Source: an uncultured Clostridia bacterium
GTDB lineage: Bacteria > Bacillota > Clostridia > Christensenellales > Borkfalkiaceae
DNA length: 32,842 bases
Reading direction: 5' to 3'
NCBI GenBank assembly: GCA_947625065.1
Contig: CANQNB010000005.1
Coordinates: forward strand, 1 to 32,842
Shown here: positions 1,549 to 26,197 of the stretch, one piece after another
Layout: the number at the start of each line of letters is the position of its first letter
Numbering within the stretch: the stretch's first letter is position 1
Notes under the pieces: generated by a model
The model's input: the letters and a program-made list of their open reading frames with translations, nothing else
The model's database searches: none
What the model was told of the DNA's origin: nothing
Program-made: the position numbers and the translations under genes

Positions 1549-1564
1549 GCTGTCACCTCCTGAC

Positions 1565-2152
1565 TTAGTGCCCGCTCGTTCCCACGGTGAGCGGGAAGCT
1601 GGCGACATATCCGCCGGCGCGCACGGTGATAAAACAGGTACCGCGGGCAACGCCCTTGACGATGGCGGTGAGCCCCTGCCATTCCACCGTCCCGATCGCC
1701 TCGTCCGAGCTCTCCCAGACGACTTCGCCCGAGATCTGTTCGGTGCAGATCGCCTTGACCGACGCGGTCATGTTGGTTTTGAGGACAAGCCCCGCCTCGG
1801 GAAGGAAGATGGAGAGCGGAGATGCCGCAACGGTGACGGTGCACTCTGCGGTGAGTTCTCCGACGGTGACGGTGACCGTCGCCGAGCCCGTGCCGACCGC
1901 CCTGACGACGGCTTGTTCGCCGCTTTCGCCGGGGATGACGGCGACGACCGTCTCATCGGAAGAGGTCCACGCGGGTGCGTCCTCCTCCGCAGCTTTCCAC
2001 GTCGCCGTGAGGGTGACGACATCCCCCTTCATGAGGGAGAGGGAGGTCTTGTCGAGTTCGACCGTATTCCGGTCTGTTACACAGCCGCACACCGCGAGCA
2101 GGAGCCCGAGGAGAACGGCAAACAGCGGAACGGCGCGTATGATCTTTTTCAT
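1565..2152 (-). CDS. Putative lipoprotein with two bacterial Ig-like (BIG2-type) domains
   Basis: 195-aa ORF with N-terminal MKKIIRAVPLFAVLLGLLLAVCGC and repeated beta-rich modules (TVELDKTSLSLMKGDVVTLTATW...WTSSDETVVAV...GTGSATVTVTVGELTAECTVTV and ...VVWESSDEAIGTVEWQGLTAIVKGVARGTCFITVRAGG). Confidence 0.8.
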   Translation of the reverse strand: MKKIIRAVPLFAVLLGLLLAVCGCVTDRNTVELDKTSLSLMKGDVVTLTATWKAAEEDAPAWTSSDETVVAVIPGESGEQAVVRAVGTGSATVTVTVGELTAECTVTVAASPLSIFLPEAGLVLKTNMTASVKAICTEQISGEVVWESSDEAIGTVEWQGLTAIVKGVARGTCFITVRAGGYVASFPLTVGTSGH

Positions 2153-2161
2153 AGTTCCTCC

Positions 2162-4135
2162 TTATTTTCCGTAGACCCTGTCCTTGCCGATGCGAAGCAC
2201 CTTGAAGGGGATCTGGGTCTTGTTTTTCTTTGCATAGCACTCACGCAGGTTCCAGACGAGAAGGATGCTGTTGCCGAGGTCGTCAGAAAATTCGTACTTC
2301 CCCTCCCCGCTGATGAGGAAGGTGAGCTCGCAATAGCCGTCCAACCGGTTGCCGACGTCCGAACACAGCTTTCCGCCCTTGAGGTTGAGGGGAACGCAGC
2401 CGTTCTCCCGCATGAAGACGGGGATGTGCCGTTCGTCGAGGCGGATCTCGTTCCAGCCACCGCCGTAGATGGCGCCCGTGTAGAGGTCAAACCATCTGCC
2501 ACGGGGGAGATAGACCTTCCGCACTGCCGTGTAGTCCCTGAGCACGGGCGCGACGAGCAGGGAACTGCCGAGCATGAACTCGTCCTCGATGCCGTAGGTC
2601 GCATCGTCCTCGGGGAATTCGAGGGAGAGGTGGCGGAGAATGGGGATGCCCGTCTTCGACGCCTCGCGCAAGAGATCGTAGAAACAGGGCATGAGGTTGT
2701 AGTGCAAAAAGAACTGCTCTCGGAGAAGGTCCAAAAGCCCTTCGTCTTTGAGGTACGCCGCCATGTTCCACGGGCTGCGGTCGTTGGTCTTCCACGCGCC
2801 CGTAAAGTCGCAGCGGTTGTTGGAGACGGGGTCGCTGTGCCACTGCATGACGGGGACGAACGCCGCCGTCTGCACCGACCGCAGGTAGAGTTCGCGGCTC
2901 GGCAGATACCCCGAGAAGCCCGAAATATCGAATCCCCATGCGGAAAAGCCCGAGAGCCCAGCGGAGAGCCCCGCTTTGAGCACGGAGCCGAACTCCGACC
3001 AGGTGGATTCCTGATCTCCCGCCCAAAGGACGGTGTGGGTGGGGCTGCGCTGCCCTCCCGCGCGGGAGAAGACGATCCCCTCTTCCCCCATGAAGTCGGC
3101 AAATGCCTGCGTATACAGTTCGGCGTAGCGGTTCTGCCCTTCGAGCCCCGTCGTGCCGTCGGAGAAGGTGACCGTGCGGTCGTGGATGAACTCCCCTCCG
3201 TCCGTCTTGAACCCGTCGATGCCGACCGTGTCTTTGAGATAGCGGAAATGGTTGAACCAGTGTTCGGTCGAGATCGCGTTCGTGAAGTCGGGCACCATGC
3301 TCCCGATCATCCACGTGTGCGGGATCTCGTAGGGGGTGCCGTCGGCATTGAGCACGCACTCCCGGTGCTGTTTGACGTATTCGTTGTCGCGCAGCGCCTG
3401 TTCCACGTTGCAGCGCGTCTCGAGGTTTCCCCCCTGCGCATACACGGGGACCACCCAAAGGAGGACGCGGATGCCGTCGGCATGCAGCGCGTCGACGAGG
3501 GCGCGGGGATCCTGCCATGGCTCGGAGAAGTGCATCTCGGCATAGGTCGCCGCCTCATTCCCCTCCTTGGGGGGAATGGAGCAGTTGTTGAAGAGATAGT
3601 GGGTGGTGAGGTCGCTCCACGGCTCGATGACGAGTACGTTGTGGGGGAAGTTGAGCTTTTTGGTGAGCATGCGCTGCTCCTCGACCTCCTCCTGCGTGTG
3701 CCAGCGGTTGGCGCTCATCCACGCGCCGAGCACCCATTTGGGGAAGAGCCGCGGGAGCCCGACGAGGGTGCGGTACTGCGTCAAGATCTCCTTGGGCGTC
3801 CCTTCGAAGTACCAGATGTTCGCCTCTTCGCCGTGGCTGCCTGCGGGGAAGGAGATGGTGAGTTCCCCCTCCTTGCGGAAATCGAAGTCCACTTCGACGT
3901 AGGTATCCACATAGATGCCGAAGCCGTCGGGCGTGAGGAAGAAGGGCATCGAGCAATAGGTGTATTCGCCCTGATAGAAACACTTCTCCCTGACGCAGGC
4001 ACGGACGAACTTCCCCTTTTGGTTGACGCTGTCGAACTTCTCGCCGAAGCCGAACACGGCGCGGTATTCCCTCGCAAGGGTGAGCGCGTATCCTTCCGCC
4101 GTCTTCTTGATGTGTCTGAAATTGATTTTTTTCAT
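2162..4135 (-). CDS. Glycoside hydrolase family 31 protein (alpha-glucosidase/xylosidase-like)
   Basis: 657-aa ORF with GFGEKFDSVNQKGKFV, ILTQYRTLVGLPRLFPKWVLGAWMSANRW, DGFKTDGGEF (nucleophile region) and VLWAGDQESTWSEF...SAWGFDISGFSG (acid/base region), as in GH31. Confidence 0.9.
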   Translation of the reverse strand: MKKINFRHIKKTAEGYALTLAREYRAVFGFGEKFDSVNQKGKFVRACVREKCFYQGEYTYCSMPFFLTPDGFGIYVDTYVEVDFDFRKEGELTISFPAGSHGEEANIWYFEGTPKEILTQYRTLVGLPRLFPKWVLGAWMSANRWHTQEEVEEQRMLTKKLNFPHNVLVIEPWSDLTTHYLFNNCSIPPKEGNEAATYAEMHFSEPWQDPRALVDALHADGIRVLLWVVPVYAQGGNLETRCNVEQALRDNEYVKQHRECVLNADGTPYEIPHTWMIGSMVPDFTNAISTEHWFNHFRYLKDTVGIDGFKTDGGEFIHDRTVTFSDGTTGLEGQNRYAELYTQAFADFMGEEGIVFSRAGGQRSPTHTVLWAGDQESTWSEFGSVLKAGLSAGLSGFSAWGFDISGFSGYLPSRELYLRSVQTAAFVPVMQWHSDPVSNNRCDFTGAWKTNDRSPWNMAAYLKDEGLLDLLREQFFLHYNLMPCFYDLLREASKTGIPILRHLSLEFPEDDATYGIEDEFMLGSSLLVAPVLRDYTAVRKVYLPRGRWFDLYTGAIYGGGWNEIRLDERHIPVFMRENGCVPLNLKGGKLCSDVGNRLDGYCELTFLISGEGKYEFSDDLGNSILLVWNLRECYAKKNKTQIPFKVLRIGKDRVYGK

Positions 4136-4142
4136 ATTTTCG

Positions 4143-5648
4143 CTATTTTAATTTGAGCACGAAGTCCATCTCGAACGTTCTGTTCCACGGGCTCGTGACC
4201 TCAACGTCCGCTACCATGTCCGAAAGCTCGGGGTAATTTTCTGCCATGTACCGCAGAAGTTCTTCCCTCGCCGCCTCCGTGCACTTGCCACGTTCCCCGT
4301 CCAATAAAAAGACGGTGCAGCCGTTTTGTTCGACGACGTTGACGTCGATCCATGTGCGCGAGTGGGAGCAGTAACCGACGTCGTCGTAGTAGCGGTGCAA
4401 GAGAAAGTAGCGGTTGCCCTCGTCATCCTTCCCCGCAAGATAGAGCGAGGTCTCGCAGATGACCGTCCCCAGCGTGTTGGAGGAGGTGTTCCACCCCGCA
4501 TAGCCGTGGATCTTGAGCAGCAGACCCTCGTCGCGGAGGAGCTCCGCGAGTTCGAGGTCGTTGTGGGTGGGATAGGCGACGTCTGCCACCGCGACCAGCT
4601 TGCCCTTTTCAAGGGCGTATTTGATGTATGCAATGTATTCGGGGAGGCTGCGCTCGACGTCGTAGGCGGCGGTGAGCTGCTCGAAGGTCCCCTCATAATA
4701 CATCTCGCTCCCGATGTTGACGGCGAGGACGATGTCGCACTCTTCGAGGCTGTACACCCTGCGGCAGCCCGCCGCGAGGATCTGGCTCTTGACGGTCGCG
4801 TCGATCGTCCTGTCCTCAAAGCTCGGGACGACGAAGGGTCCCCTCGCAGACGCGTAGTAGACGTAGATCGCGGGCATGGTACCCCTCGATTCGTTCACCG
4901 CGCGCGCGAGCATGGTCATTCCCGTGTCGTCGGCGGCGGGGTAGACGGGCACCTTGAGCCACAGTCTGTGTTCCTTTAAGAACTTGCGCACCTTCTGCTG
5001 GTCGAGGGAAGTGAAGCCGTAGGGCGCGCTGTCGTCCTGCGGGACGATGAACCCGTCGATCAGCCCCTCTTCGGCGAGGGTGAGGGTGTGGAAGAGGACG
5101 CCGAGGTTGACGTCGCGGCGCCCCGTGTAGTCGGCGAGCACGTCGACGGGCACCCGCCCTTTGATGCGCGCAAAGTCCGCCGCCTCTTCCTCCGTGAGGA
5201 TGCCAAGCTGCTCTCTGTGCAGGTATTTGCCGTAGCGGTGGATGTCCGCGCCGTACGTCCAGTAGTACTCGGGTTCCTCGTCCCCGTTGGAGAAGCGCGG
5301 GCACCGCATGATCGTTTGGAAGGCGTAGATCTTCAGCGCGGGATGCGCCTCTTTGAGCTCGCGGATGAGATCGGCGCGGGCGCAGAGGGTCTCCGCCGTC
5401 TCGCTGTGCAGGCGCGACGGAATGAGCCCGCCGTAGATGAGGGTATCCATCGAGAGGATGAGAATGTCTGCACCTGACGCGTTACGGCGTACCCATGCCG
5501 CAAGCCGGGCGGTATCTGCGGGCTTTTTCTTGCGCCCCATCATCTCGTAAGGAGGGAGCAAGAGCTCGTAGTCCGCCCGCGGCATGATCTGCGGGAACCG
5601 GTAGTTACAGGGCCGCTCGTCGAGCGGGATCATGAGGATGCGCTTCAT
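4143..5648 (-). CDS. DUF4127 family protein (copy 1)
   Basis: 501-aa ORF starting MKRILMIPLDERPCNYRFPQ with DTLIYGGLIPSRLH, PQDDSAPYG, PAADDTG and GYAGWNTSSNTLGT. Full-length paralog of the ORF at 21779..23281. Confidence 0.85.
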   Translation of the reverse strand: MKRILMIPLDERPCNYRFPQIMPRADYELLLPPYEMMGRKKKPADTARLAAWVRRNASGADILILSMDTLIYGGLIPSRLHSETAETLCARADLIRELKEAHPALKIYAFQTIMRCPRFSNGDEEPEYYWTYGADIHRYGKYLHREQLGILTEEEAADFARIKGRVPVDVLADYTGRRDVNLGVLFHTLTLAEEGLIDGFIVPQDDSAPYGFTSLDQQKVRKFLKEHRLWLKVPVYPAADDTGMTMLARAVNESRGTMPAIYVYYASARGPFVVPSFEDRTIDATVKSQILAAGCRRVYSLEECDIVLAVNIGSEMYYEGTFEQLTAAYDVERSLPEYIAYIKYALEKGKLVAVADVAYPTHNDLELAELLRDEGLLLKIHGYAGWNTSSNTLGTVICETSLYLAGKDDEGNRYFLLHRYYDDVGYCSHSRTWIDVNVVEQNGCTVFLLDGERGKCTEAAREELLRYMAENYPELSDMVADVEVTSPWNRTFEMDFVLKLK

Positions 5649-5649
5649 A

Positions 5650-6675
5650 TCAACCCTTGACCGACCCGATCTGCAATCCGCTCTTGATGTAGCGGACGAC
5701 GTAGGGATACATCATGACGATGGGGACGATGCTCAGGAGCATCATCGCCGCCTGGATGTTGGCGCTGTTCATCGTGAACTCGAAGTCCGTCTGATCCTTT
5801 GCGGCTTTGTTCATGAAGTAATAGATGTAGTAGGCGAGGGGCATCACCCCGACGTTCTTGGGGGTGTCGGTGATGAAGAGGAGCGCGGAGCCGTAGCCGT
5901 TCCACGTGCCGACGATGGTGAAGAAGCAGCAGCTGCCGATGATGGGCAGGGACATGGGGATGACGATGAGGAAGAAGAGCTGCAATTCGCTCGCGCCGTC
6001 CAGCCGCGCCGCCTCTTCGATGTCGGTCGGGATCCCCTCGAAGAAGGTCTTGAAGTACAACAGGTGGGTGACGTTGCTGATGGAGATGAGCACCACCGAC
6101 CAGATCGTGTCGTTGAGGTTGAGCATCGTCATGAGCAGACGGATGGGGACGATACCCGCCGAGAAGAGCATCGTGATGATGAAGAACATCATGATGCCGC
6201 TGCGGAAGGGACAGTCCTTTTTGGAGAGGACGTACGCCGCCATCGCCTCGACGAGATTGGAGACGACGGTGACGATGAGGGTGATGATCACCGAGTTCCC
6301 GAAGGACGTCCAGAAGTCCACCGCCCCGTCTCCGCGGAAGATATACTCAAAGGGAAAGAGGGAGAACTTGGTGGGCCAGAGGACGACTTCGAGGTTGTGG
6401 TACCCGTCGTTGAAGGCGAGGGAGAAGTAGTTGAGCAGCGGCAAAATGATGATGACCGTGCCCACAAGGAGGAGCACGACGTTGACGACGGCAAGGATGA
6501 CGTCGAGAACGCTTTCGCGGATGCGGTTCGCCTTGCGGAGCGCCTTCTTCTCCTTTTTGCTCAGGGAGACATAGGGAACTGCCGCGACTGCCGCGGCGCC
6601 CTCCGTTGCGAGCTGCTGCGTTGCAACTTCGGCTTCCGTCATTTCGGCTTCTATCATCTGTGGATTTCTATCCAT
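5650..6675 (-). CDS. Carbohydrate ABC transporter permease (LplC/CUT1-type)
   Basis: Multi-span membrane protein with EEAARLDGASELQLFFLIVIPMSLPIIGSCCFFTIVGTWNGYG (permease EAA loop). Start set at MDRNPQM (6675), preceded by AAGGAGGTGCAGCAT; the ORF track extends to 6738. Confidence 0.9.
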   Translation of the reverse strand: MDRNPQMIEAEMTEAEVATQQLATEGAAAVAAVPYVSLSKKEKKALRKANRIRESVLDVILAVVNVVLLLVGTVIIILPLLNYFSLAFNDGYHNLEVVLWPTKFSLFPFEYIFRGDGAVDFWTSFGNSVIITLIVTVVSNLVEAMAAYVLSKKDCPFRSGIMMFFIITMLFSAGIVPIRLLMTMLNLNDTIWSVVLISISNVTHLLYFKTFFEGIPTDIEEAARLDGASELQLFFLIVIPMSLPIIGSCCFFTIVGTWNGYGSALLFITDTPKNVGVMPLAYYIYYFMNKAAKDQTDFEFTMNSANIQAAMMLLSIVPIVMMYPYVVRYIKSGLQIGSVKG

Positions 6676-6688
6676 ATGCTGCACCTCC

Positions 6689-7756
6689 TTACCAAAGTCC
6701 CCGTTTGAGGGTCTTGGTGGTGATCGCGTTGCCGACAAGCATCAGAACGAGACCGATGATCCCGTTGAAGACGCCGAGCGCCGTCGCGAAGGGCACGTTG
6801 TTCGAGGCGTCGAGGTTGGAGATCCGGTAGATATAGGTGTCGAGGGTGATCTGCGAGTTGATGAGGGAGGCATCGGCTTGCATCATCGTCCACACCTGCT
6901 CGAAGCCGACCGCCATCATCCCCGCGATGTTGAGCACGAGCATGAGCGCGATGGTGGGCAGGATGGAGGGAAGGGTGAGATACCACATCTTCTGTAGCTT
7001 GTTGGCGCCCTCGAGCGTCGCAGACTCATAGTAGGTCTTGTCGATGCTCATGATCGCCGAGTAGAAGAGGATGCACCCCCAGCCCGCGCCCTTCCACGCC
7101 GAGAGGAAGATGACGAGCGGTTTGAACCAGCTCTCCTGCGCCATGATGTTGACGATGCCGATCTCGGTGAGCGCCTTGCCGAAGAAGCCCGTGTCGGGGT
7201 GCAAAAAGCCCGACCAGATACCGATGACGATCGCCCACGAGAGGAAGTTCGGAATGGTGATGATGATGAGGATGACCTTGGAGAAGGTCTGGTTTTTGAG
7301 CTCGGAGAGCATGACCGCGATGACGATGGACAGCGGGAAACAGAGCGCGAGACGGATGACGTTGATGAGCAGCGTGTTTCCGACCGCATGAAACATCGTC
7401 GTATCCACAAAGATGTCGAGATAGTTCTGGATGGTCCAATCGCCGTGGGTCAGGTTGAAGAGGATGTCGCCGCGCGTGAGGTCGAACCCCGCCCCCTTGA
7501 AGGAGAACAGGATGCCGAGCATGGGGACATAAGAAAAGACCAGCGTGAACGCAGCGGCAGGGATGAGAAACCACAAGAGCTTCCGATACTTCTTGATGCG
7601 TTTCCACTGGTCGTGCCAGAAGCCGTGCTTTTCACCGGCGGTCTTTGCCTTGGGGGTGGGGGGCGGCGGGAGCGCGCTGCTGCGCTCGACCTCCGCGGGG
7701 TCCCCTGCCGCTGTCGCGGCAGGGGTCTGTTGCGTGTATTGCAGGTTATTTTCCAT
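6689..7756 (-). CDS. Sugar ABC transporter permease (LplB-type)
   Basis: Hydrophobic ORF with KLLWFLIPAAAFTLVFSYVPMLGILFSFK and YESATLEGANKLQKMWYLTLPSILPTIALMLVLNIAGMM (EAA-like loop). Internal ATG at 7756 has GAGGTG upstream; the ORF track start at 7765 is a GTG. Confidence 0.9.
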   Translation of the reverse strand: MENNLQYTQQTPAATAAGDPAEVERSSALPPPPTPKAKTAGEKHGFWHDQWKRIKKYRKLLWFLIPAAAFTLVFSYVPMLGILFSFKGAGFDLTRGDILFNLTHGDWTIQNYLDIFVDTTMFHAVGNTLLINVIRLALCFPLSIVIAVMLSELKNQTFSKVILIIITIPNFLSWAIVIGIWSGFLHPDTGFFGKALTEIGIVNIMAQESWFKPLVIFLSAWKGAGWGCILFYSAIMSIDKTYYESATLEGANKLQKMWYLTLPSILPTIALMLVLNIAGMMAVGFEQVWTMMQADASLINSQITLDTYIYRISNLDASNNVPFATALGVFNGIIGLVLMLVGNAITTKTLKRGLW

Positions 7757-7811
7757 AAAATTCACCTCGCTGTCTGTGCTTCCGCACGTGCCACGGTTTT
7801 TCCGCCCTATC

Positions 7812-9806
7812 TCAATCCCTGTTGAGTTTGACGTCGTTGTACCAAGCGGTCATCTCGTCGCTGATCACGTCGGACCAATACGGGTACTTCACGCCGAGCA
7901 CCTTCTTCGCGGAGGAAGTGCGGGCAGCGGTGCGCGCATTGTCGAGGACGGTGACGGGGTCGAGCCCCTTTGCGGGTGCGTCGATCGCCTGCGAGATCGC
8001 ATTCTTGAGGTCGGTGCGGCAGAGGATGGACACGGGCGCCCAATGCTCGAATGCGGGGCACATCGCCATGGGGTTGGTGATGAGGGTATCGTCGGTGGGG
8101 ATGATGACCCGCCATGCGCCGAAGCCCGTCTCACGGAGGTGGAAGAGAACGCGCGCGGAGCGGGCATTCGTGCCGTTGCAGTACTGCGAATTGTTGTTGA
8201 TCTGGCTGACGTAGCGCTCGGTGAGCTTGACCCACATGCCGTCCTGCGAGGAGGTGATCACCTCTTCCTCTGTGTTCTCGGGGTCGAGACGGTTGCCCGC
8301 GGAGGCATCCTTGTTGTAGTAACGGGTGTAGCTGAACTCGTAGGGCGCGAGGAAGACGATGCGGTTATCGAGGTCTTCGTAGGGGTTGAACTTGTTCTCG
8401 ATGGAGACGGTGATCTCCTCAAAGCTCTTGCCTGCCGCCTTGCCCTCTTCGACGAGCTTCTTGCAGTCCTCCTTGGTGGGAGCGCCCTCGGGCGCCTCGA
8501 CTTCGTACCAGTGGGTGTCTGCGGGGAAATTCTCGACGCTGCCGTACTGCTTCTGCTCCTCGAGGGTGAGCCCGTTGCCGCCGTAGAATTCGGCGAAGTA
8601 GATCATCTTCTTCGCGAGGAAGTCGATGGTATAGAGTGCGGTGGGCGCCATGTAGTTGGGGATGACGGTGTAATAGGACACGCCCGCCGCCCCGCCTTCG
8701 ATGCGCGCGACCTTTTGGTCGACGGAGCCGCCCGTGCCGTCGCCGCGGACGCGGAGCTGCCAGCCGAGGATCTGCTCTTTCACCGTCTTGAAGCTGTTGA
8801 AATCGTCCTTATACAGCCCCGTGAGCCCGAGCTTTTCGGGGATCTTGCCGATGCTGATGATGGAGTTGTAGAGCGGGATCATGTGCCAATAGGGCATGAA
8901 GACGCAGGAGTAGAGCTCGTTCGCAAACTTTTGGTTGAGGGTGCTCTGCTGTTCGTTCTGCCAAGCCGAGGAGAGCACGTCCGCCTTGCGGAGCTCGCTC
9001 ATGTACACGGCGTATTTGGTGGTGTTCTCGCTGAAAACGTACTGCTGGATCTTGCCGTTTTCATCCACATAGAACTGGATGGGCACCTCGAACGCGCCTT
9101 TGAGCTGGACGACCTCGTTGGAGTTGTTGCCGGGAAGCCCGAGGGCGTGGTAGGAACTGTTGCTGCCGAAGTGCTCCTGCAGGGTGTTGAGCGCCCACGT
9201 GACCTGCTCCACCGTCTCGGGGAGCCCGTTCTCGGTGTCCGGGTACTTCTCTTCGAAGCCGATCTCTTTGAGGTGGTCCCTGTTCCAGATCATCGCGGAG
9301 TCGGTCATGGAGACGTAGCCGAAGTCGGGGATGCCATAGATGTGGCTCACGCCGTCGGAATCGACATAGGTGACGGGCTCCCAGCCGTAGTCCATGAGGT
9401 CGATGAGCTGATAGAGGATCTTGCCCGCCTCGGTATTCTGTAAGATCTCGGTGAGGTCGAGGAAGGTCCCGCCCGCAAGATAGGGGTGGTACTGCGCCTC
9501 GGTGAGCTTCATGAAGTGATAGGGCTCACGGTTGATGAGGAAGCCGTTGACCTCGTTATCGGCGTTGGCGCCCAGTTCGTCGTATTCGACGTCGTAACCT
9601 GTTTTTTCTTTGATGATCTTCGCCGTATCGTCCTTGCCGAAGCCCTTGATGCCCGTTTCGGGGTAGCACCCCTTGAGCTTGATGGGCTTGGAGAGATCGA
9701 CGTTCCAATCTACTTCCTGCTTATATTCTGTTCCGCAGCCTGCGAATGCCGCGATCCCCGAGAGGAGCAGCACGCCCGCAACTGCGACAGAGACGATCTT
9801 TTTCAT
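7812..9806 (-). CDS. Extracellular solute-binding lipoprotein of an ABC sugar transporter
   Basis: MKKIVSVAVAGVLLLSGIAAFAGCGTEYKQEVDWN... (lipobox) at 9806 with GGAGGAAATTTCTCT upstream. Adjacent to two permease genes; long extracytoplasmic protein. Confidence 0.88.
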   Translation of the reverse strand: MKKIVSVAVAGVLLLSGIAAFAGCGTEYKQEVDWNVDLSKPIKLKGCYPETGIKGFGKDDTAKIIKEKTGYDVEYDELGANADNEVNGFLINREPYHFMKLTEAQYHPYLAGGTFLDLTEILQNTEAGKILYQLIDLMDYGWEPVTYVDSDGVSHIYGIPDFGYVSMTDSAMIWNRDHLKEIGFEEKYPDTENGLPETVEQVTWALNTLQEHFGSNSSYHALGLPGNNSNEVVQLKGAFEVPIQFYVDENGKIQQYVFSENTTKYAVYMSELRKADVLSSAWQNEQQSTLNQKFANELYSCVFMPYWHMIPLYNSIISIGKIPEKLGLTGLYKDDFNSFKTVKEQILGWQLRVRGDGTGGSVDQKVARIEGGAAGVSYYTVIPNYMAPTALYTIDFLAKKMIYFAEFYGGNGLTLEEQKQYGSVENFPADTHWYEVEAPEGAPTKEDCKKLVEEGKAAGKSFEEITVSIENKFNPYEDLDNRIVFLAPYEFSYTRYYNKDASAGNRLDPENTEEEVITSSQDGMWVKLTERYVSQINNNSQYCNGTNARSARVLFHLRETGFGAWRVIIPTDDTLITNPMAMCPAFEHWAPVSILCRTDLKNAISQAIDAPAKGLDPVTVLDNARTAARTSSAKKVLGVKYPYWSDVISDEMTAWYNDVKLNRD

Positions 9807-9894: not shown

Positions 9895-10096
9895 AAACCC
9901 TTGCCCTCTTCCGTCTTAGGGGGGGAGGTGCGGAAAAGAGCGGGCTGTTGAAGGTTTGCCCTCCGCGCGGAAGGCGCCTGCGGGCAGCTGCCTGCCGCAG
10001 ATTGGAGAATTCCCCCACCGAGCCCCCTCCCGGGGTGCGGGAGAGGGCAGTATGGAGGAATTTCACTCACTTTTCAGTGAGCAAGGGGGCATGAAC

Positions 10097-12955
10097 TCAT
10101 TCGGGCACAACAATATCTTCTTCGATACCCATGTAGCTGTCTTCGGGAGCGTCCTTTGCGTCGTAAGTGAGCGCTTTTGCATTGTAATTCTTCACAAGGT
10201 ATTCGATGACGAGCTTCTGATAGACGTTGAGATAGTGTTCTGCGTCTGCTGTAAGTCCATAGTAGAGTTTGTAATCCTTGGTGCGCGCGGTGAGATCGCT
10301 AAACGCGGGGTCAGATCCCCAACGATTGGCGGTGGTATAGTTCCAATTCATGCCGCTCTCGTCGAACTTGTTCTTGCCGACAAGCAAATCGATGTAGCCG
10401 AGAACATCTTCGGTGAGGTCGAGTTTCGCACTCTCTTCAAGTGCCTGGATCTTGCTCGCGAGCATCAGAACGGCGTCGAGATAGAGGAGGTCGCCCGTGA
10501 ACTGCTGCGCGTTGTCGTCACCCGTGGTGACAGCCGTGAAGGTCTCCGAAACGTACTTGGGAAGGGTAACGCCGTTTTCTTCGAGTCTGAGCTTGAAGAA
10601 CATCATGCGGAACGCGGCGTTGAAGCAACCGTCGGAGCTGATCGTCTTCCCTGCGCCGATTTCGGCAAACGCGTTGAGGATCTGACCAAGCGCGTCTTTC
10701 CCGCTGTAAGTCGTGGGGGTCTTCAAACCCTTATCGACCGCGGCGATTTGGAGCGCGCCGAAAGCTTCGTTGGCGTTGAGCGCCTTGATGTCTGCCGCAA
10801 ACTGCTTCCAGTTCGCATAGCCGCCCTGCGTGTAGCCGTCTGCGGCCGCCTGATCGTCAGGAGTGAGCGCGGTGTAAGCGGGAGCGACGGTCTCATCGAA
10901 GTAGAGAGCTTCGCTGTACAGGTAGCCCTTGATCGGGGTCTCGCCGGGAGCTTCCCAACCGAGGTAGTTATAAGCGCCGAGGTCGCTGAGTGCGCTGTAC
11001 TTGTCGATAAATGCGAGCACGTCTGCACTGTAAGTGATGGGCTCGATCTTGGTCGCAGTGACGCCCCAGTTATGGGTCGACGCATTCAGGATATAGCCGC
11101 TCTTCGTAAGGAAGTCGTTGAGGATGTCTGCATAGTCGTTCGGGCGCGCCTTTCCTGCGAGCGTGCCGCCGAGCATTGCGGTGAACTGCGCTTCCATCTT
11201 CCAGCCGATCCAGCCGAAGTAGCCATTGTTTGCATACCAATGCTGTTTCAGAAGTCCCTGCATTTCGTAGGTGGAGACCCAGTACGTGTTGAGGAAATCC
11301 ATTTCTTCGTCGGTGAGCTCTTCGATCTTTGCGACGGGCGCAGTTTGGATGCGCACCGCGAGTTTCACCATTTTAGCGAGGGGATAGAAGAAGTTGTTGT
11401 AGTATGCGGGAACTCCGAGTTCATCCGTCAAGTCGGTGACGAATGCGGGAAGTTCTGCTTCGTTTTCCATGAAGAAGTCATAGAAGGAGACAAGGCGGGC
11501 AGCGGAATTGAAGTTATCGTCCACGCTCAATGCTCCGACCTTTGCAACTTCACTATCGCCTGCATCTTCCGTCTTTCCTTCGGTCTTGATCTTGAATGCG
11601 ACATGAAGGAGTTCGGCAAATGCCTCTTCTGCGGTGTAGGACTTGGTCGTTTTACCCGTCGCCTTTTCAAAGGTCTCAAAGGTCTTGCTCCAAGCCTCGC
11701 TCTCTTCGAGCGTCTTCATCTCTGCGGAGAAGGTCTCCCAAGCCTCGTAATTCGCCTTGTAGGCTGCGTTCTCTTCCTTCGCGAGCTGTGCATTGACGTA
11801 CGCCTGATCCTTGGTTTCAAGCGCGGTGCGTTCTTCGGCAAGGGCGCGGAAGCTCGTGAGATCGTTGTAGAGGTAGCCTTCTGCGTCCTCTTCCGTCTTC
11901 CAACCGACGAAGTTGTAATCTGCAAGTGCGACGAACTCCTGGATCTTGGTCACCATTGCCACTGCGTCTTCGGAGCCGTTTTCGGTCGGGTCCTCGGTAA
12001 GAGGAGTGACGTCTGCATCGAAGCCCAATCCGCTCGCGCTGACGGTGGCGGTGGGATCGCACTCGGCGACGACGTCGAAGATGTATTTGAGGCTTGCCTT
12101 GAAGTTCTTCTCCTCATCGGGCAGACCGAAGTAGTGCTCGTAGTCGGTGTTCCCGTCGCGAAGGTCGTTGTTGTTGGTGATGTTCCATGCGAAGCCGCCT
12201 TCGGTGAAGCCGTCCACGCCAATCATGTGGGCGTTGATGACCTCGGCGATGTCCTCATCGAGCCAGACATATTCGCCCTTCTGCTGCCTTGCATAGATTT
12301 CGCCCGCAAGGGTGAGCACGGGATAGATATAGTTGTTGAAGTCGTCGAGGAATGCCTTGCCGTTGGTGCTTTCCGTGGCATACCCGAGCATGGTCTGAAC
12401 GAAATCGGGGATCTTGACGCCCGCTTCCTCCATCTTCTTCATGAGGAAGAGAAGGTGGAACTCATACTTGAAGCCGTTCGTGTCGTTCGAGTTGAAGGTG
12501 TAGACCGGTTTCTGCGAATCGTCCTTGAAGAACCCTGTTCTCACGCGGAAGAGGATGGCGACCATCTTCTGCATCGCCGTTTCACCCGTGTATTCCGCAT
12601 CCGGTTGGGCGCTGTTCATGGTCATGTTGGCGAGCTTGTAGCTCTTCGCCACGTAGTCGGCGTTGTCGAAGTACTCTTTGAGACTGTCGTAAGCCTCTTC
12701 CCAATCGTAGAAGTTCTGCTCTTTGGCTTCGCCGAGGAGACGCAACACGCTCGCCTGCTGGTCTGCCGAGAGCTTTTTATAATCTTCGCGGATGGTGTTG
12801 AAGTACTCTGCTTCATCCCAGAAGTAACCGGTAATGCCCTCTTCCGTGCTGTCCGCAGGCTTCTTCCAATCCTTGTAGGGATAGCTCGTATCGGTGAGAG
12901 CGCCGAGCGTTTCGAACTTCGTGATGAACGCCTTCGCCTCTTCGGTCAGGTTAAA
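10097..12955 (-). repeat. Three degenerate protein-level repeats of ~310-325 aa in the large lipoprotein (approx. 12955-11976, 11975-11034, 11033-10097)
   Basis: Aligned openings: 'AKAFITKFETLGALTDTSYPYKDWKKPADSTEEGITGYFWDEAEYFNTIREDYKKL', 'AVAMVTKIQEFVALADYNFVGWKTEEDAEGYLYNDLTSFRALAEERTAL', 'SADVLAFIDKYSALSDLGAYNYLGWEAPGETPIKGYLYSEALYFDETVAPAYTAL'. Boundaries are approximate. Confidence 0.75.
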
Positions 12956-14587
12956 CGACTTCTCATATTCGGGCTTCGCCTTCTCGAAACCTGCAAAGTC
13001 GAGGAGGTTGAGGTACTGCTGTGCCATCCCGGAGCTTTGGGCATGGCTCGCGTCGCTGCCGTACCACTTCGCAACTTCGTCGTAGTCATCGAGATAGTCG
13101 CTGATGTTCTCGGCGGTCATACCGGCAAGGCGGTCGATCTTTGCCTGGTACTCTGCGAGCTTGCCGCCGATCTCCTTCTCGGAGACGGGGGTGCCGTCAT
13201 AGCGGAAGGAGTAGTAGTCGACGCCGTCCTTCGCTTCGTACGTCGTGCAGGCGTAGGTCTGAAGGATGGTGTAGTCGTAGGTGCCGTTCGAATCGGTGTC
13301 GTTCGCAAGGAGCATGTCGAACCACTGCCCTCTGAGCGTGGGGTCGATGGAGACCTTGGCTTCAATGTCGTCGAGCTCTTCCTCCGTGGGGAAGTAGACC
13401 TGCGCCTCGGTGACGACGAGGTTGAGGAAGCGCGCACCGTTGAAGAAGTCAACGTTCTTGACGCTGACGCCCGTCTCGATGGGATTCTTGATGTCGAGAC
13501 CTGCGGTGAACACATAGCCGTTGTCCTGCGAGTAGGTGGCTCGCTGAAGCGCGTTGACCTTCTCTTCGTCGATCACGGTCTCAAAGGCGACCTCGCCGTC
13601 GAGCGTGAAGGTGTATTCGTCGACGAAGTAAACGGTGTCGTCGATCTCGTCGGTCTTTTTGACCGTCTTGATCTGGAGCTCCATCTCCTTGGCTTCCGGG
13701 GTCCAATAGCCGTCGCCGTTTCCGAGGGAGGTCCACTTGGAGGACATGATCTTCTTGCCGATGTTGTATTCCACATCGGAGAAGGAATTATCGCGGGAGG
13801 TACCCTGGTACTCGTACCAGTCGCCCGTCTCGGTGTCGCATGCGATACCGTCGGCAATGACGAAGTAATCCTGCCATGCGTACACGCCGATGAAGGCGTA
13901 CACCTTGTCCTCTATGCCCTTATAGGGAGGGGTGATCTGGATCTCAGAGAGGTCGAACTTGTATCTGAGACCGGCGACGCCCTGCTTGCGGACGGGGAAG
14001 GTGAGGACGCTCGCGTCCATCGCGCTGCCGAGCTCCCACGACTGTGCGATCGTGTCCGTGATCTCGGCGCCCTTTTCGTCGAGGAGACCGTAGCCGTTCC
14101 ACGACTGGATGCTGTTGACGCCCATGCCCGTGGTCTCGTGAGTGATGACCTTGCTGTTGGTGATCATGCCGAGCGAGTCCGCATCGGTACCCGTGTTGTC
14201 CCAGCAGTTGTAGCCCGTGAGCTCGGTGCCGTTCACGTAGTACCAGAAGTTGTCGGAGTTGCCCTCGGCAAAGCCCTTCTTGTTCTGGAAGATGCGGCGG
14301 GTGCTGCCCTTCTTCGTAACGTAGCCGCCTTGGGTGCCGTCTTCGACGTTCTCATCTTCCATGAAGTCGAGATCGGCTTCTACCGTTGCATTGATGGCGT
14401 CCGCGATCGTCTTATACGAACCGACGAGATTGCCCTCGTTGTTGTACGCCTCGTATGCATCGGCCTGGCGGGGATCGTCGCGGCGCTTGCCATTGCCGCC
14501 GCCTCCTCCCTTGTTACACGCTACCAGACCCACAACGCTCGTCGCGACCATTGCGGTGCCGAGTAAAAGTGCTACCAGTTTCTTCAT
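10097..14587 (-). CDS. Very large uncharacterised lipoprotein with three degenerate tandem repeats
   Basis: ~1,496 aa from MKKLVALLLGTAMVATSVVGLVACNKGGGGG (lipobox LVAC plus Gly linker), start at 14587 with CGGAGGAGAAAATTT. The internal repeats are recognisable at protein level. No enzyme motif recognised. Confidence 0.9.
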   Translation of the reverse strand: MKKLVALLLGTAMVATSVVGLVACNKGGGGGNGKRRDDPRQADAYEAYNNEGNLVGSYKTIADAINATVEADLDFMEDENVEDGTQGGYVTKKGSTRRIFQNKKGFAEGNSDNFWYYVNGTELTGYNCWDNTGTDADSLGMITNSKVITHETTGMGVNSIQSWNGYGLLDEKGAEITDTIAQSWELGSAMDASVLTFPVRKQGVAGLRYKFDLSEIQITPPYKGIEDKVYAFIGVYAWQDYFVIADGIACDTETGDWYEYQGTSRDNSFSDVEYNIGKKIMSSKWTSLGNGDGYWTPEAKEMELQIKTVKKTDEIDDTVYFVDEYTFTLDGEVAFETVIDEEKVNALQRATYSQDNGYVFTAGLDIKNPIETGVSVKNVDFFNGARFLNLVVTEAQVYFPTEEELDDIEAKVSIDPTLRGQWFDMLLANDTDSNGTYDYTILQTYACTTYEAKDGVDYYSFRYDGTPVSEKEIGGKLAEYQAKIDRLAGMTAENISDYLDDYDEVAKWYGSDASHAQSSGMAQQYLNLLDFAGFEKAKPEYEKSFNLTEEAKAFITKFETLGALTDTSYPYKDWKKPADSTEEGITGYFWDEAEYFNTIREDYKKLSADQQASVLRLLGEAKEQNFYDWEEAYDSLKEYFDNADYVAKSYKLANMTMNSAQPDAEYTGETAMQKMVAILFRVRTGFFKDDSQKPVYTFNSNDTNGFKYEFHLLFLMKKMEEAGVKIPDFVQTMLGYATESTNGKAFLDDFNNYIYPVLTLAGEIYARQQKGEYVWLDEDIAEVINAHMIGVDGFTEGGFAWNITNNNDLRDGNTDYEHYFGLPDEEKNFKASLKYIFDVVAECDPTATVSASGLGFDADVTPLTEDPTENGSEDAVAMVTKIQEFVALADYNFVGWKTEEDAEGYLYNDLTSFRALAEERTALETKDQAYVNAQLAKEENAAYKANYEAWETFSAEMKTLEESEAWSKTFETFEKATGKTTKSYTAEEAFAELLHVAFKIKTEGKTEDAGDSEVAKVGALSVDDNFNSAARLVSFYDFFMENEAELPAFVTDLTDELGVPAYYNNFFYPLAKMVKLAVRIQTAPVAKIEELTDEEMDFLNTYWVSTYEMQGLLKQHWYANNGYFGWIGWKMEAQFTAMLGGTLAGKARPNDYADILNDFLTKSGYILNASTHNWGVTATKIEPITYSADVLAFIDKYSALSDLGAYNYLGWEAPGETPIKGYLYSEALYFDETVAPAYTALTPDDQAAADGYTQGGYANWKQFAADIKALNANEAFGALQIAAVDKGLKTPTTYSGKDALGQILNAFAEIGAGKTISSDGCFNAAFRMMFFKLRLEENGVTLPKYVSETFTAVTTGDDNAQQFTGDLLYLDAVLMLASKIQALEESAKLDLTEDVLGYIDLLVGKNKFDESGMNWNYTTANRWGSDPAFSDLTARTKDYKLYYGLTADAEHYLNVYQKLVIEYLVKNYNAKALTYDAKDAPEDSYMGIEEDIVVPE

Positions 14588-14611
14588 AAATTTTCTCCTC
14601 CGATATTTTTT

Positions 14612-14626
14612 TCGCACTTTGTGCGA
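14612..14626 (-). other. Short leader hairpin TCGCAC-aaa-GTGCGA upstream of the large lipoprotein SD
   Basis: Perfect 6-bp inverted repeat tcgcac ttt gtgcga read on the + strand. Confidence 0.5.
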
Positions 14627-14677
14627 TTATCGCCTGTCCTGTTCCCCTGCGCCGCGGGTGCCCTGCTATCGTTTTTG

Positions 14678-14722
14678 GGGTATTTGTCTGCAAATACCCG
14701 CGCAAGAGGGCGCCCTCTTGCG
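14678..14722 (-). promoter_or_regulatory. Two adjacent perfect hairpins in the 5' leader of the large lipoprotein mRNA
   Basis: gggtatttg-tctg-caaataccc (14678-14699) and the perfect palindrome cgcaagagggcgccctcttgcg (14701-14722), between the promoter (-10 at 14783) and the start codon (14587). Confidence 0.65.
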
Positions 14723-14782
14723 CCGAAAAAGTTGCTCCCCTCCCGCCGCGGACCCACTGCGGGAAGATACTTTGGTACTGTC

Positions 14783-14811
14783 ATTGTACTCCCATTCCCT
14801 TCGTTTGTCAA
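14783..14811 (-). promoter_or_regulatory. Sigma-A-type promoter P1 for the large lipoprotein/ABC transporter operon
   Basis: Minus strand TTGACA (14811-14806), 17-nt spacer, TACAAT (14788-14783), with an A/T-rich upstream element. Confidence 0.85.
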
Positions 14812-15108
14812 TAGTTTTTGAAAAAAATTTTTATCTTTTCACAAAACATTTTGCTTTCTTCTCTTTTTTTGTGTACATACTTCGCAAATTTCGTGAAAAA
14901 TTCAATTTGTGCATGAAAAACTTTTTCCAATTCGTCCGCTCCCCCGCCCTTCCCGCGCGTACCTATATATACTGATAGTAGGGGCGCCCCCTCCCGAGGA
15001 GGGGGGCAGGAGGTGGGTACGAATTCTGAACTCGCCCCACCTCAGTCACTACGTGACAGCTCCTCCCACGGAGGAGCCATGGTCGCGCGCTCCCCTTCCC
15101 CACCCCAT

Positions 15109-15133
15109 AAAAAAAGCCGCGGGGAGCCGCGGC
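15109..15133 (-). terminator. Intrinsic terminator after the rpiR-like gene
   Basis: Minus strand GCCGCGG-CTCC-CCGCGGC followed by TTTTTTT (stem 15133-15116, T tract 15115-15109). Confidence 0.9.
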
Positions 15134-15192
15134 ATTCGTGTTTTCGTGTTACAATTCGTGTTACAATGAAAATTCGTTTTACCAAACAGGCA

Positions 15193-16023
15193 TCAGATGA
15201 GCTTGTTGGCTGTCGCACGGTTGCTGCGCGCGTAGAACGCGTCGAACCGCGGTCTGTCGGAGTTGTGCATGCCCGTGCAGAGGGTGTCGACCACAAACAG
15301 CTGCATGATCTTGCCCGTCATCGAGCCGGGGCGCATGGGCGATTCCATGGGCGCCGCGGAGATGACGAGGTCGGCATACTGCGAGAGGGGGGATTTTTCG
15401 TAACAGGTGATCACGAGCACCTTCATCCCGCTCGCGCGCGCAAGTTCCGCCGCCTCCACCGTGTCCTTCGAAGAACCCGAGATGGAGAAGATGATCATGA
15501 GGTCCTCTTCCCCGCGGGAGGAGAGCAGGACGTTTTGCAGGTGGCAGTCGCGCTCGCAGAAGGTGGCGATGCCCATCATCATGAGGCGGTTGTGCATTTC
15601 GAGGGCGGCGACGTAGGAGTGCCCCACGCCGAAGCAGCACACCGTGCGCGCCGAGAGGATCTGGTTGATCGCGCCGTAGAGCTGGTCCTCCCTGATACCG
15701 CGGCGGGCGTTTTCGATGGCGAGCTGGTACTGCGCCTCCATCTCCCCGATGAAGCCGACGCCCTCCTCGTCCTCGTCATCGTGCTGCGCCGCGCCCTGCG
15801 CGAGGGCGAGACGGAACTCCTGATACCCGTTGTAGCCGATGGATCTGCAAAAGCGCAGAACGGTCGCCTCGGCGACCCCCGTCGCCGAGGCGAGGTCGGT
15901 GATCGACATGTAAATGACCTGCTTTAAGTCGACCGACTCGAAATAGTCGATGAGCTTTTTCTGGCTCTTCGTGAGCTTGCCTTCCTTGAGGCGGGAAATT
16001 TTTCTTTTGATTCCGTTGGGCAT
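15193..16023 (-). CDS. MurR/RpiR family transcriptional regulator
   Basis: 276-aa ORF with N-terminal HTH (KSQKKLIDYFESVDLKQVIYMSITDLASATGVAEATVLRFCRSIGYNGYQEFRLALA) and SIS-like domain (CFGVGHSYVAALEMHNRLMMMGI, IIFSISGSSKDTVEAAELARASGMKVLVIT). Confidence 0.93.
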   Translation of the reverse strand: MPNGIKRKISRLKEGKLTKSQKKLIDYFESVDLKQVIYMSITDLASATGVAEATVLRFCRSIGYNGYQEFRLALAQGAAQHDDEDEEGVGFIGEMEAQYQLAIENARRGIREDQLYGAINQILSARTVCCFGVGHSYVAALEMHNRLMMMGIATFCERDCHLQNVLLSSRGEEDLMIIFSISGSSKDTVEAAELARASGMKVLVITCYEKSPLSQYADLVISAAPMESPMRPGSMTGKIMQLFVVDTLCTGMHNSDRPRFDAFYARSNRATANKLI

Positions 16024-20921: not shown

Positions 20922-21782
20922 TCAGGACGGTAAGTATCTGTTTTTGAAGTTGGAGACGGCGCCGTAAGCCCCCGCAAGGTTGCCGAGACGGGCGAACACG
21001 ATGTCGTCGTTGTCCGCGATGAGTTCGCGCAGGATGGTCTCCGACTGGGCGATGCCGCCGCCCAAAATGATGAAGTCGGGGGAGAGGGTCGCGCGGATAT
21101 TGGTGAGGAGGACGTTGAGGTAGAAGCCGAACTTCTCGATGACGTCGCGCGCCTCCGGTTCCCCGCTGACATAGCGGTCGAAGATCTGCTTGGCGTTGAC
21201 GATACCGAGCATCTTCCTCTGCCCGTCCCTGATGAGCCCGCTCCCGCTCACATAGCACTCGGCGCAGCCGCGCTTGCCGCAGGTGCATTTGAGCCCCTTG
21301 GGGACGAGGATGAAGTGACCCCAGCGCGCCGCGTCGTAGTTCTTGCCGCGCAGAATCTTTCCGTCGACGAGGCTCGCCCCGCCCAATCCCGTGCCGAGGG
21401 TGAGCATGGTGACGTTCCTCGCAGTGGGGTAGAAGGCGAGCTCCCCCTTGAGGGCGCAGATCGCGTCGTTGTCGCACACGGTGCGGACCTGGTACTTCTT
21501 CTCGATCTGAGGGGCGATCTTCGCGCCCGTCCAGCCCCTGAGGTTCTCGGTGGCATAGACGCACACGCCGCGCAGGGGATCGATGTTCCCCGCCGAAGAG
21601 ATGCCGATCGTCGTGATCCCCTCCGTCCAGAGCGCGTCGATGGCGCAGTAGAGGGCGTGGAAGATGGCGCTTCTGCCCGCATGTGCGGGCGTGGGAATGG
21701 TAAAGTCCGCATCGAGCGAACCGTCGTCCGTGAGGCGGATCGCCTTGATGTCCGTTCCGCCCAGATCAATTCCGATTTTCAT
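20922..21782 (-). CDS. ROK family protein (sugar kinase type)
   Basis: MKIGIDLGGTDIKAIRL start at 21782, TLGTGLGGASLVDGKILRG, and the ROK zinc motif CTCGKRGCAECYVSG. 4-nt ATGA overlap with the upstream DUF4127 gene. Confidence 0.92.
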   Translation of the reverse strand: MKIGIDLGGTDIKAIRLTDDGSLDADFTIPTPAHAGRSAIFHALYCAIDALWTEGITTIGISSAGNIDPLRGVCVYATENLRGWTGAKIAPQIEKKYQVRTVCDNDAICALKGELAFYPTARNVTMLTLGTGLGGASLVDGKILRGKNYDAARWGHFILVPKGLKCTCGKRGCAECYVSGSGLIRDGQRKMLGIVNAKQIFDRYVSGEPEARDVIEKFGFYLNVLLTNIRATLSPDFIILGGGIAQSETILRELIADNDDIVFARLGNLAGAYGAVSNFKNRYLPS

Positions 21783-23281
21783 TTTTTCACCTTGAGACGG
21801 ACATCCGTCTCGAACATTCTGCTCCACGGCATCTCGGCGTACACTTCCTCCACCTCGGCGGCGAGGGAGGGGAATTCCCGCTTCATGTACTCCTCAATGC
21901 CTCTGCGGACGCGCTCCGCCACCTTCCCCCTCTTTCCGTCGGCGTGGAAATAGTCGAGCCCGAGGGCGGGGAGAAAATTTTCGGTCACGTCCTTGCGTAC
22001 AAAGTTCATATATCCGCAGTCCTCATAGTAGCGGTGGAGAAGAAAGGCTTTCCGCCCCTCCTCGTCCCTGCCGAAGAAGTAGAGGACCGCCTGGCACACT
22101 GCCGTGCCGAGGGTGTTCGACGAGGTGTTCCAGCCCGCATAGGCGTGCAGCCTGAGCAGGAGCCCCTCCCCGTCGAGCAGCCGCAAAAGTTCCCCGTCGC
22201 TGCCGTTGCAGGCGGCGACGTCGCCGAGAGAGACGACCTTGCCCCGTTCGAGCGCATAGCGGATGTAGGCGACGAACTCGGCGAGGTTGCGCTCGATGTC
22301 GTAGGCGGTGACGTACCCGCTCCCGTCCTCCTGCCACATCCCCGAGCCCATGTTGACGCACAGCACGATGTCCGCCTCCTCGAGGGAATACACCTGCTGC
22401 CCGTACACGGAGAGGATATGGTACTTGACCGTCTCGCCGAGGGGGCGATCCTCGAACCACGGCACGACCGCCTCCGCCTTGGTGGAGGCATAGTGCACAT
22501 AGATGCGGGGGCGGTAGCCGTTGAGCTCTGCGACCGCCCTCCCGAGGAGGATGAGCCCCGTGTCGTCGGCGGAGGGATACATCGCCGTCTTCATGTGCAG
22601 GGAATTGGATTTGAGAAAGCTGCGCACGGTGATCTGGTCCATCGACGTGAAGCCGTAGACCGCGGCATCGTCCTGCGGGACGATGAAATAATCCGCCGTG
22701 CCGTCCTTGATGTATTCGAGATCATAGAGGAGCGCCGCGAGGTTGGTCTGCCTGCGCCCGAGGAAGTCCTCGAGCACCTCCTGCGGGATGGTCCTTTTGA
22801 CCCGCTCAAAGTCTTCCCGCTCCTCCTCGGTGAGGATGCCGAGCTTCTCCTTGTGGGTGTACCTGCCGAACAGGTGCAGCTCCGCCCCGCAGAGATCGTA
22901 ATAGTCGGGCTCCTCGTCGGAGAGGGAATAGTCGGGGCACCGCATGATGAGCTGGAAGAGATAGAGCTTCATCGCGGGGTTGCGCCGCCGCAGTTCCCTT
23001 ACGACCCCCGCGCGTGCTTTGAGTTCCTCAAGGGAGAGGTGATGGAGGCGGGAGGGCACGATGCCGCCGTAGAGCAGGGTGTCGAGGGAGAGGATGCAGG
23101 CATCTGCGCCCCCGATGTTTTCGAGCAGCCACTCTGCGAGCCGCGCGGTGTCGGCAGGCGTCTTCTTGTCCCCCATGAACTCCTTGGGCGGAAGGATGAG
23201 CTCATCGTCCGCCGGCATCATCGCGGGGTAGGAATAGTTGCACGGCCTCTCGTCGAGGGGCAGCATGACGATCTTTTTCAT
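21779..23281 (-). CDS. DUF4127 family protein (copy 2)
   Basis: 500-aa ORF starting MKKIVMLPLDERPCNYSYPAMMP, with DTLLYGGIVPSRLH, PQDDAAVYG, SADDTG and YAGWNTSSNTLGT. Overlaps the SGNH gene stop by 4 nt. Confidence 0.85.
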   Translation of the reverse strand: MKKIVMLPLDERPCNYSYPAMMPADDELILPPKEFMGDKKTPADTARLAEWLLENIGGADACILSLDTLLYGGIVPSRLHHLSLEELKARAGVVRELRRRNPAMKLYLFQLIMRCPDYSLSDEEPDYYDLCGAELHLFGRYTHKEKLGILTEEEREDFERVKRTIPQEVLEDFLGRRQTNLAALLYDLEYIKDGTADYFIVPQDDAAVYGFTSMDQITVRSFLKSNSLHMKTAMYPSADDTGLILLGRAVAELNGYRPRIYVHYASTKAEAVVPWFEDRPLGETVKYHILSVYGQQVYSLEEADIVLCVNMGSGMWQEDGSGYVTAYDIERNLAEFVAYIRYALERGKVVSLGDVAACNGSDGELLRLLDGEGLLLRLHAYAGWNTSSNTLGTAVCQAVLYFFGRDEEGRKAFLLHRYYEDCGYMNFVRKDVTENFLPALGLDYFHADGKRGKVAERVRRGIEEYMKREFPSLAAEVEEVYAEMPWSRMFETDVRLKVKK

Positions 23282-26061: not shown

Positions 26062-26090
26062 ATTGTAAAGAAAAATTGTATATTTGTCAA
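26062..26090 (-). promoter_or_regulatory. Sigma-A-type promoter P2 for the phosphodiester glycosidase operon
   Basis: Minus strand TTGACA (26090-26085), 17-nt spacer, TACAAT (26067-26062). Upstream module nearly identical to P1. Confidence 0.88.
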
Positions 26091-26197
26091 CAGTTTCTGA
26101 AAAAAATTTTCGTCTTTTGGCGGAAAATTTCCCCTTTGCAGGGGTGACGGCGGGGGGATCCCCCCGTTTTTGCAAAATTTTTTCGGATACTTTGCCG

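Follow-up and report, generated by a model that had tools for sequence, protein, structure and literature searches.

A giant repeat-bearing lipoprotein encoded at the head of a putative glycan importer operon in an uncultured Clostridia bacterium

The stretch of DNA analyzed here (the window; 32,842 nucleotides) carries a gene for a giant lipoprotein, and our comparisons indicated that this protein belongs to a real and conserved family that has no name as yet, in a locus of a known kind. We see about an even chance that it serves a Gram-positive polysaccharide-utilization locus as an accessory lipoprotein for glycan capture, with outward repeats that bind or reach the glycan and an inner domain that works beside the solute-binding protein (SBP) of an ABC importer. 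The neighbors, the anchoring, and the architecture of the protein suggest such a role as a surface glycan-capture scaffold.

The lipoprotein gene and its helical repeats

The gene lies on the minus strand, from an ATG at 14587 to a stop codon at 10099-10097, and it encodes 1,496 amino acids. The interval 10097-14587 that an earlier note had marked was therefore the coding interval. Because a TCGGAGGAG ribosome-binding site lies 5' of ATG 14587, the longer GTG start (14617) is unlikely. A signal peptide with a lipobox ending in Cys, the mark of a bacterial lipoprotein, was present; as the earlier note had described, the lipobox is followed by a Gly5 linker (VGLVAC ending at Cys24, then NKGGGGGNG). 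Cys24 was invariant in alignment A2 (20 members). A 1,536-aa open frame on the plus strand (9956-14566) is antisense to the entire gene and is a shadow frame, and similar long shadow frames were seen over other genes of the window and of its relatives. The features of the window are listed in Table 1.

Table 1. Features of the lipoprotein gene, its protein product, and the surrounding locus
Feature	Coordinates	Strand	Basis
GH31 glycosidase, copy b	2162..4135	-	domain match
DUF4127 protein, copy a	4143..5648	-	domain match
ABC permease 2 (BPD_transp_1)	5650..6738	-	Pfam
ABC permease 1 (BPD_transp_1)	6689..7765	-	Pfam
SBP, solute-binding lipoprotein of the importer, constant partner	7812..9806	-	locus comparison; no Pfam family
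Helical repeat R3, aa 1188-1496	10100..11026	-	BLASTP, family HMM
Helical repeat R2, aa 873-1186	11030..11971	-	BLASTP, family HMM
Helical repeat R1, aa 549-867	11987..12943	-	BLASTP, family HMM, AlphaFold2
N-terminal region, aa 34-548: small alpha/beta unit, beta-sandwich, then helices	12944..14488	-	alignments A1, A3; AlphaFold2
Beta-sandwich core, aa ~186-403, YncM/glutamic-peptidase-like topology, no conserved Gln/Glu dyad	13379..14032	-	model, Foldseek, conservation
Gly5 linker, aa 27-31	14495..14509	-	sequence
Signal peptide and lipobox, aa 1-24 (MKKLVALLLGTAMVATSVVGLVAC), Cys24 lipid anchor	14516..14587	-	sequence; A2 alignment
Promoter TTGACA-17-TACAAT ahead of the lipoprotein gene	14783..14811	-	sequence; relatives
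AT-rich dyad GAAAAgATAAAAATTTTTTTC directly upstream of the -35 box; candidate operator	14820..14840	-	relatives comparison
Terminator after the RpiR gene, splitting two transcription units	15116..15133	-	sequence
RpiR-family regulator (HTH_6 + SIS)	15193..16023	-	domain match
Second promoter/dyad copy, 3 mismatches, before the NAGPA gene opening the other operon	26085..26112	-	0 expected in shuffles

The window protein matched no family in Pfam, NCBIfam, or PADLOC, and S-layer and other curated surface families were absent from its Pfam and NCBIfam results. PDB sequence searches likewise gave no significant match. Thus, the statement of the earlier note that no known family was recognizable held in all four collections. 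The note had named an S-layer or enzyme family as an outcome that would count against it, and neither was found by sequence; the closest enzyme likeness was structural only and was confined to the N-terminal beta-sandwich described below. Matches to IMP beta-lactamase (E 0.3-0.7), obtained in PDB profile searches with the N-region and full-length alignments, were attributed to chance. When 20 relatives were searched in Pfam, the matches were weak and scattered over one or two members each (YfbR-like, DUF7420, CBM53, and others), and the one weak PHROG match was confined to the signal peptide.

The C-terminal part of the protein consists of three repeats. BLASTP comparisons of the separate segments gave E=1.3e-18 for R1-R3, E=4.9e-14 for R2-R3, and E=5.8e-7 for R1-R2, at 25-27% identity, and in each repeat the family HMM found a single complete domain (about 318 positions; 316, 244, and 224 bits). 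At the level of sequence, we regard the three repeats as diverged but certain, in agreement with the earlier note, and their length is about 318 aa. A lack of significant self-similarity, which the note had named as a second outcome that would count against it, was thus not observed. An AlphaFold2 model of the repeat, built from 86 sequences, was nearly all helical (pLDDT 95.5, pTM 0.93). A fold search of this model against the PDB gave no significant match (best E=1.2, probability 0.05), and entries of the SGBP-A and SusD-like types appeared only at E values of about 4-6 with probabilities of at most 0.05. The best match among viral models (E 0.53) was rejected. Judged against the PDB and viral models, the modeled repeat is possibly a new fold, and because the fold was unmatched, no ligand site could be transferred from solved structures.

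As counted with the family HMM, relatives of the window protein carry one to four repeats, and most carry three. Single repeats were found in L065, L066, L067, L069, and L074, two repeats in L072, L073, L079, and L080, and four repeats in L052, L064, L070, and L076. In a FastTree tree, the R1, R2, and R3 sequences of the window's close relatives mostly clustered apart, which indicates that the triplication predates this group. Later duplications within single proteins were apparent in L052 (R3/R4), L070 (R1/R3 and R2/R4), and L078 (R2/R3). A class-wide search for the repeat gave a sole distant match (G333, E 3e-4) to the helical start of a UDP-sugar pyrophosphorylase-like protein, which we judged to be chance.

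The conserved repeat positions G25, G39, L58, W81, and N237 look mostly structural, so a spacer role fits these residues too. On this view, the repeats would be no more than spacers, and the protein would be a structural component of the surface that varies in length, keeps the wall or a partner some way off, and leaves the imported glycan unbound. The range of copy numbers, the recent duplications, and the structural appearance of the conserved residues all suit such a protein. However, the anchor and the conserved domain are both N-terminal and nothing lies past the repeats, which leaves no head to project. In addition, the repeats share only 25-27% identity, whereas those of Periscope proteins are highly similar (PMC8201768), and the strict tie to one importer described below would be unexpected for a general wall protein. 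We consider the spacer explanation unlikely.

The same conservation pattern bears on whether the repeats could be an undescribed class of enzyme that acts on the glycan outside the cell. Each repeat is self-contained, compact, and modeled with high confidence, and W26, G39, Y40, W81, and N237 are strongly conserved. Against it, the 15 positions that were most conserved in 86 repeats included no acidic residue, and the fast divergence between copies argues against the retention of several active sites. An enzymatic function of the repeats therefore seems quite improbable.

The N-terminal region and its beta-sandwich

The lipid anchor at the N terminus would place the N-terminal region next to the membrane and the fast-diverging repeats on the outside. 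The two parts differed in conservation: the mean identity per 50-aa window was mostly 0.4-0.6 in the N-terminal region versus mostly 0.2-0.35 in the repeats. An AlphaFold2 model of the N-terminal region together with R1 (pLDDT 90.2, pTM 0.70) contained a beta-sandwich, which bore out the suggestion of the earlier note that this region includes a beta-rich domain.

All eight Foldseek matches to the sandwich with E values below 0.001 were to YncM, CPAVM1, neprosin, or scytalidoglutamic peptidase (probability 1.00). The E values ranged from 8e-5, for YncM, to 1e-3; those for scytalidoglutamic peptidase (2ifw/2ifr) were 6e-4 to 1e-3 at a probability of 1.00, and the likeness was one of fold alone. 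Glucanase and laminin-G types followed as weaker matches. On the strength of these eight matches, the sandwich could be an active G1-like glutamic peptidase that processes a glycoprotein or peptide-linked substrate before import. However, family G1 peptidases are characterized by a Gln/Glu dyad (PMC3009609) and neprosin by two Glu residues (PMC9343461), and no Gln or Glu within aa 186-403 reached 80% conservation among 31 family members, which makes a glutamic peptidase mechanism unlikely. Q128, E371, and Q448 (A3 numbering) are conserved, yet they fall outside the sandwich. Furthermore, Peptidase_A4 (PF01828) had no match in the genome, and profile alignments of the N-terminal region with eqolisins and with YncM/CPAVM1, whose query sequences were confirmed against PDB sequences, were not significant. 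The window protein thus resembles the G1 (eqolisin) family in fold and lacks both the dyad and the Pfam match, and we regard an active peptidase as very improbable. The alpha/beta and helical parts that flank the sandwich are a further difference from YncM/CPAVM1, eqolisins, and neprosin.

The importer locus and its promoter

The lipoprotein gene is the first gene of the importer transcription unit. It directly precedes the SBP gene, as the earlier note had said, with a gap of 290 nt to the SBP ATG at 9806. The claim that it opens the operon was also upheld: the terminator of the RpiR gene (15133-15116) and a promoter (14811-14783) lie ahead of it, and no terminator-like site was found on the minus strand between the lipoprotein and SBP genes. 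In a profile search of the PDB, the SBP itself matched CbpB weakly (7x0i, E=0.0028). Other neighbors include GH20C, two GH31 glycosidases, an SGNH esterase, a phosphodiester glycosidase (NAGPA), a ROK kinase, an acyltransferase, and GDPD. As predicted from sequence, the GH20C, GH31, NAGPA, GDPD, esterase, and acyltransferase genes suggest a glycan that may contain N-acetylhexosamine, be acylated, or be phosphodiester linked. The locus has two DUF4127 genes (4143-5648 and 21779-23281, minus strand), both of which are widely kept in relatives.

A contig search with the single protein as the query gave no match, and a search with an alignment as the query identified 32 related loci. These came from uncultured Clostridia (rabbit gut, chicken gut, and other sources), Bacilli (yak and buffalo rumen), and one Erysipelotrichaceae bin. 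The lipoprotein gene was upstream of the same SBP-permease-permease set in 30 of the 32 loci and directly adjacent to it in 29, and the usual order after this set was DUF4127, GH31, a Big2 protein, and GDPD. The L056 contig stops at the lipoprotein gene. In L082, two ORFs (13177-15836; 465 and 441 aa) that encode lipoprotein-like proteins lie between the lipoprotein and SBP genes, and the first of them had no Pfam family.

The tie to the importer that the earlier note had proposed also appeared at the level of whole genomes. The repeat model and the cognate SBP matched the identical 19 of 151 related genomes, and neither occurred alone; these 19 genomes are related and do not represent 19 independent events. 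All 66 repeat matches in the related genomes fell in ORFs of the giant-lipoprotein family. In the genomes G034 and G072, the lipoprotein-importer module is present twice, and every lipoprotein has its own SBP. Mirror-tree correlations (raw Pearson r, related loci) were 0.81 for lipoprotein-SBP, 0.84 for lipoprotein-RpiR, and 0.26 for lipoprotein-GH31b, values that are compatible with linked inheritance.

These data also bear on operon hitch-hiking, in which a surface protein with an unrelated job, such as adhesion or shielding from immunity or phage, merely shares the promoter. Two observations are in its favor. First, an orphan gene (L065/G059, 186-3692) encodes the N-terminal region and a single repeat with no importer adjoining. 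Second, distant N-region relatives in L083 and L084 adjoin other genes. Against it, the genes stay adjacent in distantly related Clostridia and Bacilli, the pairing is preserved in the duplicated modules, and 0 of 151 genomes had the importer SBP but not the repeat protein, or the reverse. Hitch-hiking accordingly strikes us as rather unlikely.

In the L065 orphan, an additional long linker with many GKDGxDG repeats precedes these two parts, and the neighboring gene is MgtE-like. The distant relatives in L083 (8044-10314) and L084 (8060-10183, minus strand) are about 700-757 aa and belong to another family of the order; by eye, their neighbors include PIG-L-like deacetylase and SIS-like genes. 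L083 also has a ROK-like neighbor, and an importer like that paired with the giant lipoprotein is absent from both loci.

Within 420 nt upstream of the gene, 25 of 33 loci had a promoter that agreed with the consensus at 11 or more of 12 positions, compared to 0.22 expected from shuffles, and the promoter-to-start distance was 80-90 nt in most loci. The dyad upstream of the -35 box reads GAAAAAATAAAAATTTTTTTC in many relatives. The combined promoter/dyad element, at two mismatches or fewer, had one match in the window's genome (1.46 Mb). Of the 19 genomes with the lipoprotein, the window's own among them, 17 had such a match immediately ahead of the gene; an exact match was found in 0 of 18 searched relatives without the lipoprotein. 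With its second copy before the NAGPA gene, the element is a candidate regulatory element connecting the locus's two operons. Given its adjacency and the presence of the dyad, the neighboring RpiR protein is perhaps the regulator that binds this site.

The leaders of the window and L051 are about 120-140 nt longer than those of other relatives. The window's leader contains a perfect palindrome of 24 nt, GCGCAAGAGGGCGCCCTCTTGCGC (14700-14723, minus strand), which was seen in the window only, and no Rfam family was found in the leader. The NAGPA protein has tandem 26-codon repeats (HTTHVDKNSDGKCDECGTQMETPKPP) after its lipobox (25726-25959, minus strand), and similar H-x-DGKCDxCG linkers follow the lipobox of giant-lipoprotein relatives L061, L063, L076, and L078.

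Proposed role and comparison with known systems

In the capture role that we favor, lipid at the N terminus would anchor the protein, the conserved beta-sandwich region would sit nearest the membrane, where the SBP and permeases are, and the C-terminal helical repeats would face outward. The repeats would bind glycan at several places or lengthen the reach toward it, and the inner domain would deliver captured oligosaccharide to the SBP. We infer that the ligand is a glycan, that it is captured and handed over in these steps, and that RpiR is the regulator. We counted in favor of capture the invariant lipobox Cys, the 30 of 32 loci, the shared 19 genomes, and the duplicated modules with their own SBPs, as well as the sugar-enzyme neighbors, the better-conserved N-terminal region, the variable repeat number, and the shared strict promoter element. 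We counted against it the lack of a carbohydrate-binding family match for the window protein, the unmatched repeat fold, the structural-looking conserved residues, the L065/G059 orphan, and the intervening ORFs of L082.

A bolder version is that the repeat represents both a novel fold and a novel carbohydrate-binding module. One to four copies of it would form the outward arms with which ABC glycan importers of gut Clostridia and Bacilli capture glycan, and it would be a separately evolved Gram-positive counterpart of the surface glycan-binding proteins of Bacteroidota. We offer this version tentatively and think it is more doubtful. If the capture role is correct, the family would add a domain with a confidently modeled and so far unmatched fold, and its natural relatives with one to four copies, each with its own importer, would make a simple test system.

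The minimum for a Gram-positive polysaccharide-utilization locus (gpPUL) is a polysaccharide-degrading enzyme, a transport system, and a regulator in one locus (PMC5320581). By annotation, GH20C, two GH31 enzymes, the SBP with two permeases, and RpiR appear to supply this minimum. The gpPUL definition does not provide for a giant accessory lipoprotein, whereas here it is the fixed first gene of the importer operon. In Periscope proteins, the tandem repeats are highly similar and form a stalk between the anchor and a distal functional head (PMC8201768). The giant lipoprotein likewise is anchored at the surface and has folded domains in tandem whose number varies, but it differs in both defining features because its repeats are diverged, its anchor is N-terminal, and it ends at the third repeat with no head. 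Sas20 and other amylosome starch-binding proteins belong to secreted amylosome complexes (PMC9112005); the likeness, several domains that bind glycan at the cell surface of a gut Firmicute, extends here to the proposed role only.

SusE/SusF and SGBP-A of Bacteroidota would share with the giant lipoprotein an N-terminal lipid anchor, outward tandem domains, and genes encoded with a glycan importer. The envelope and importer type differ, however, and no significant PDB sequence or repeat-fold match assigned the protein to the SusE/SusF/SGBP-like group. In our view the family is new, the fold may be new as well, and the locus belongs to a kind that is already known. If the capture role is correct, some importers of gut Firmicutes use a large multi-domain surface partner besides the SBP, as Bacteroidota do with SusE/SusF-type proteins.
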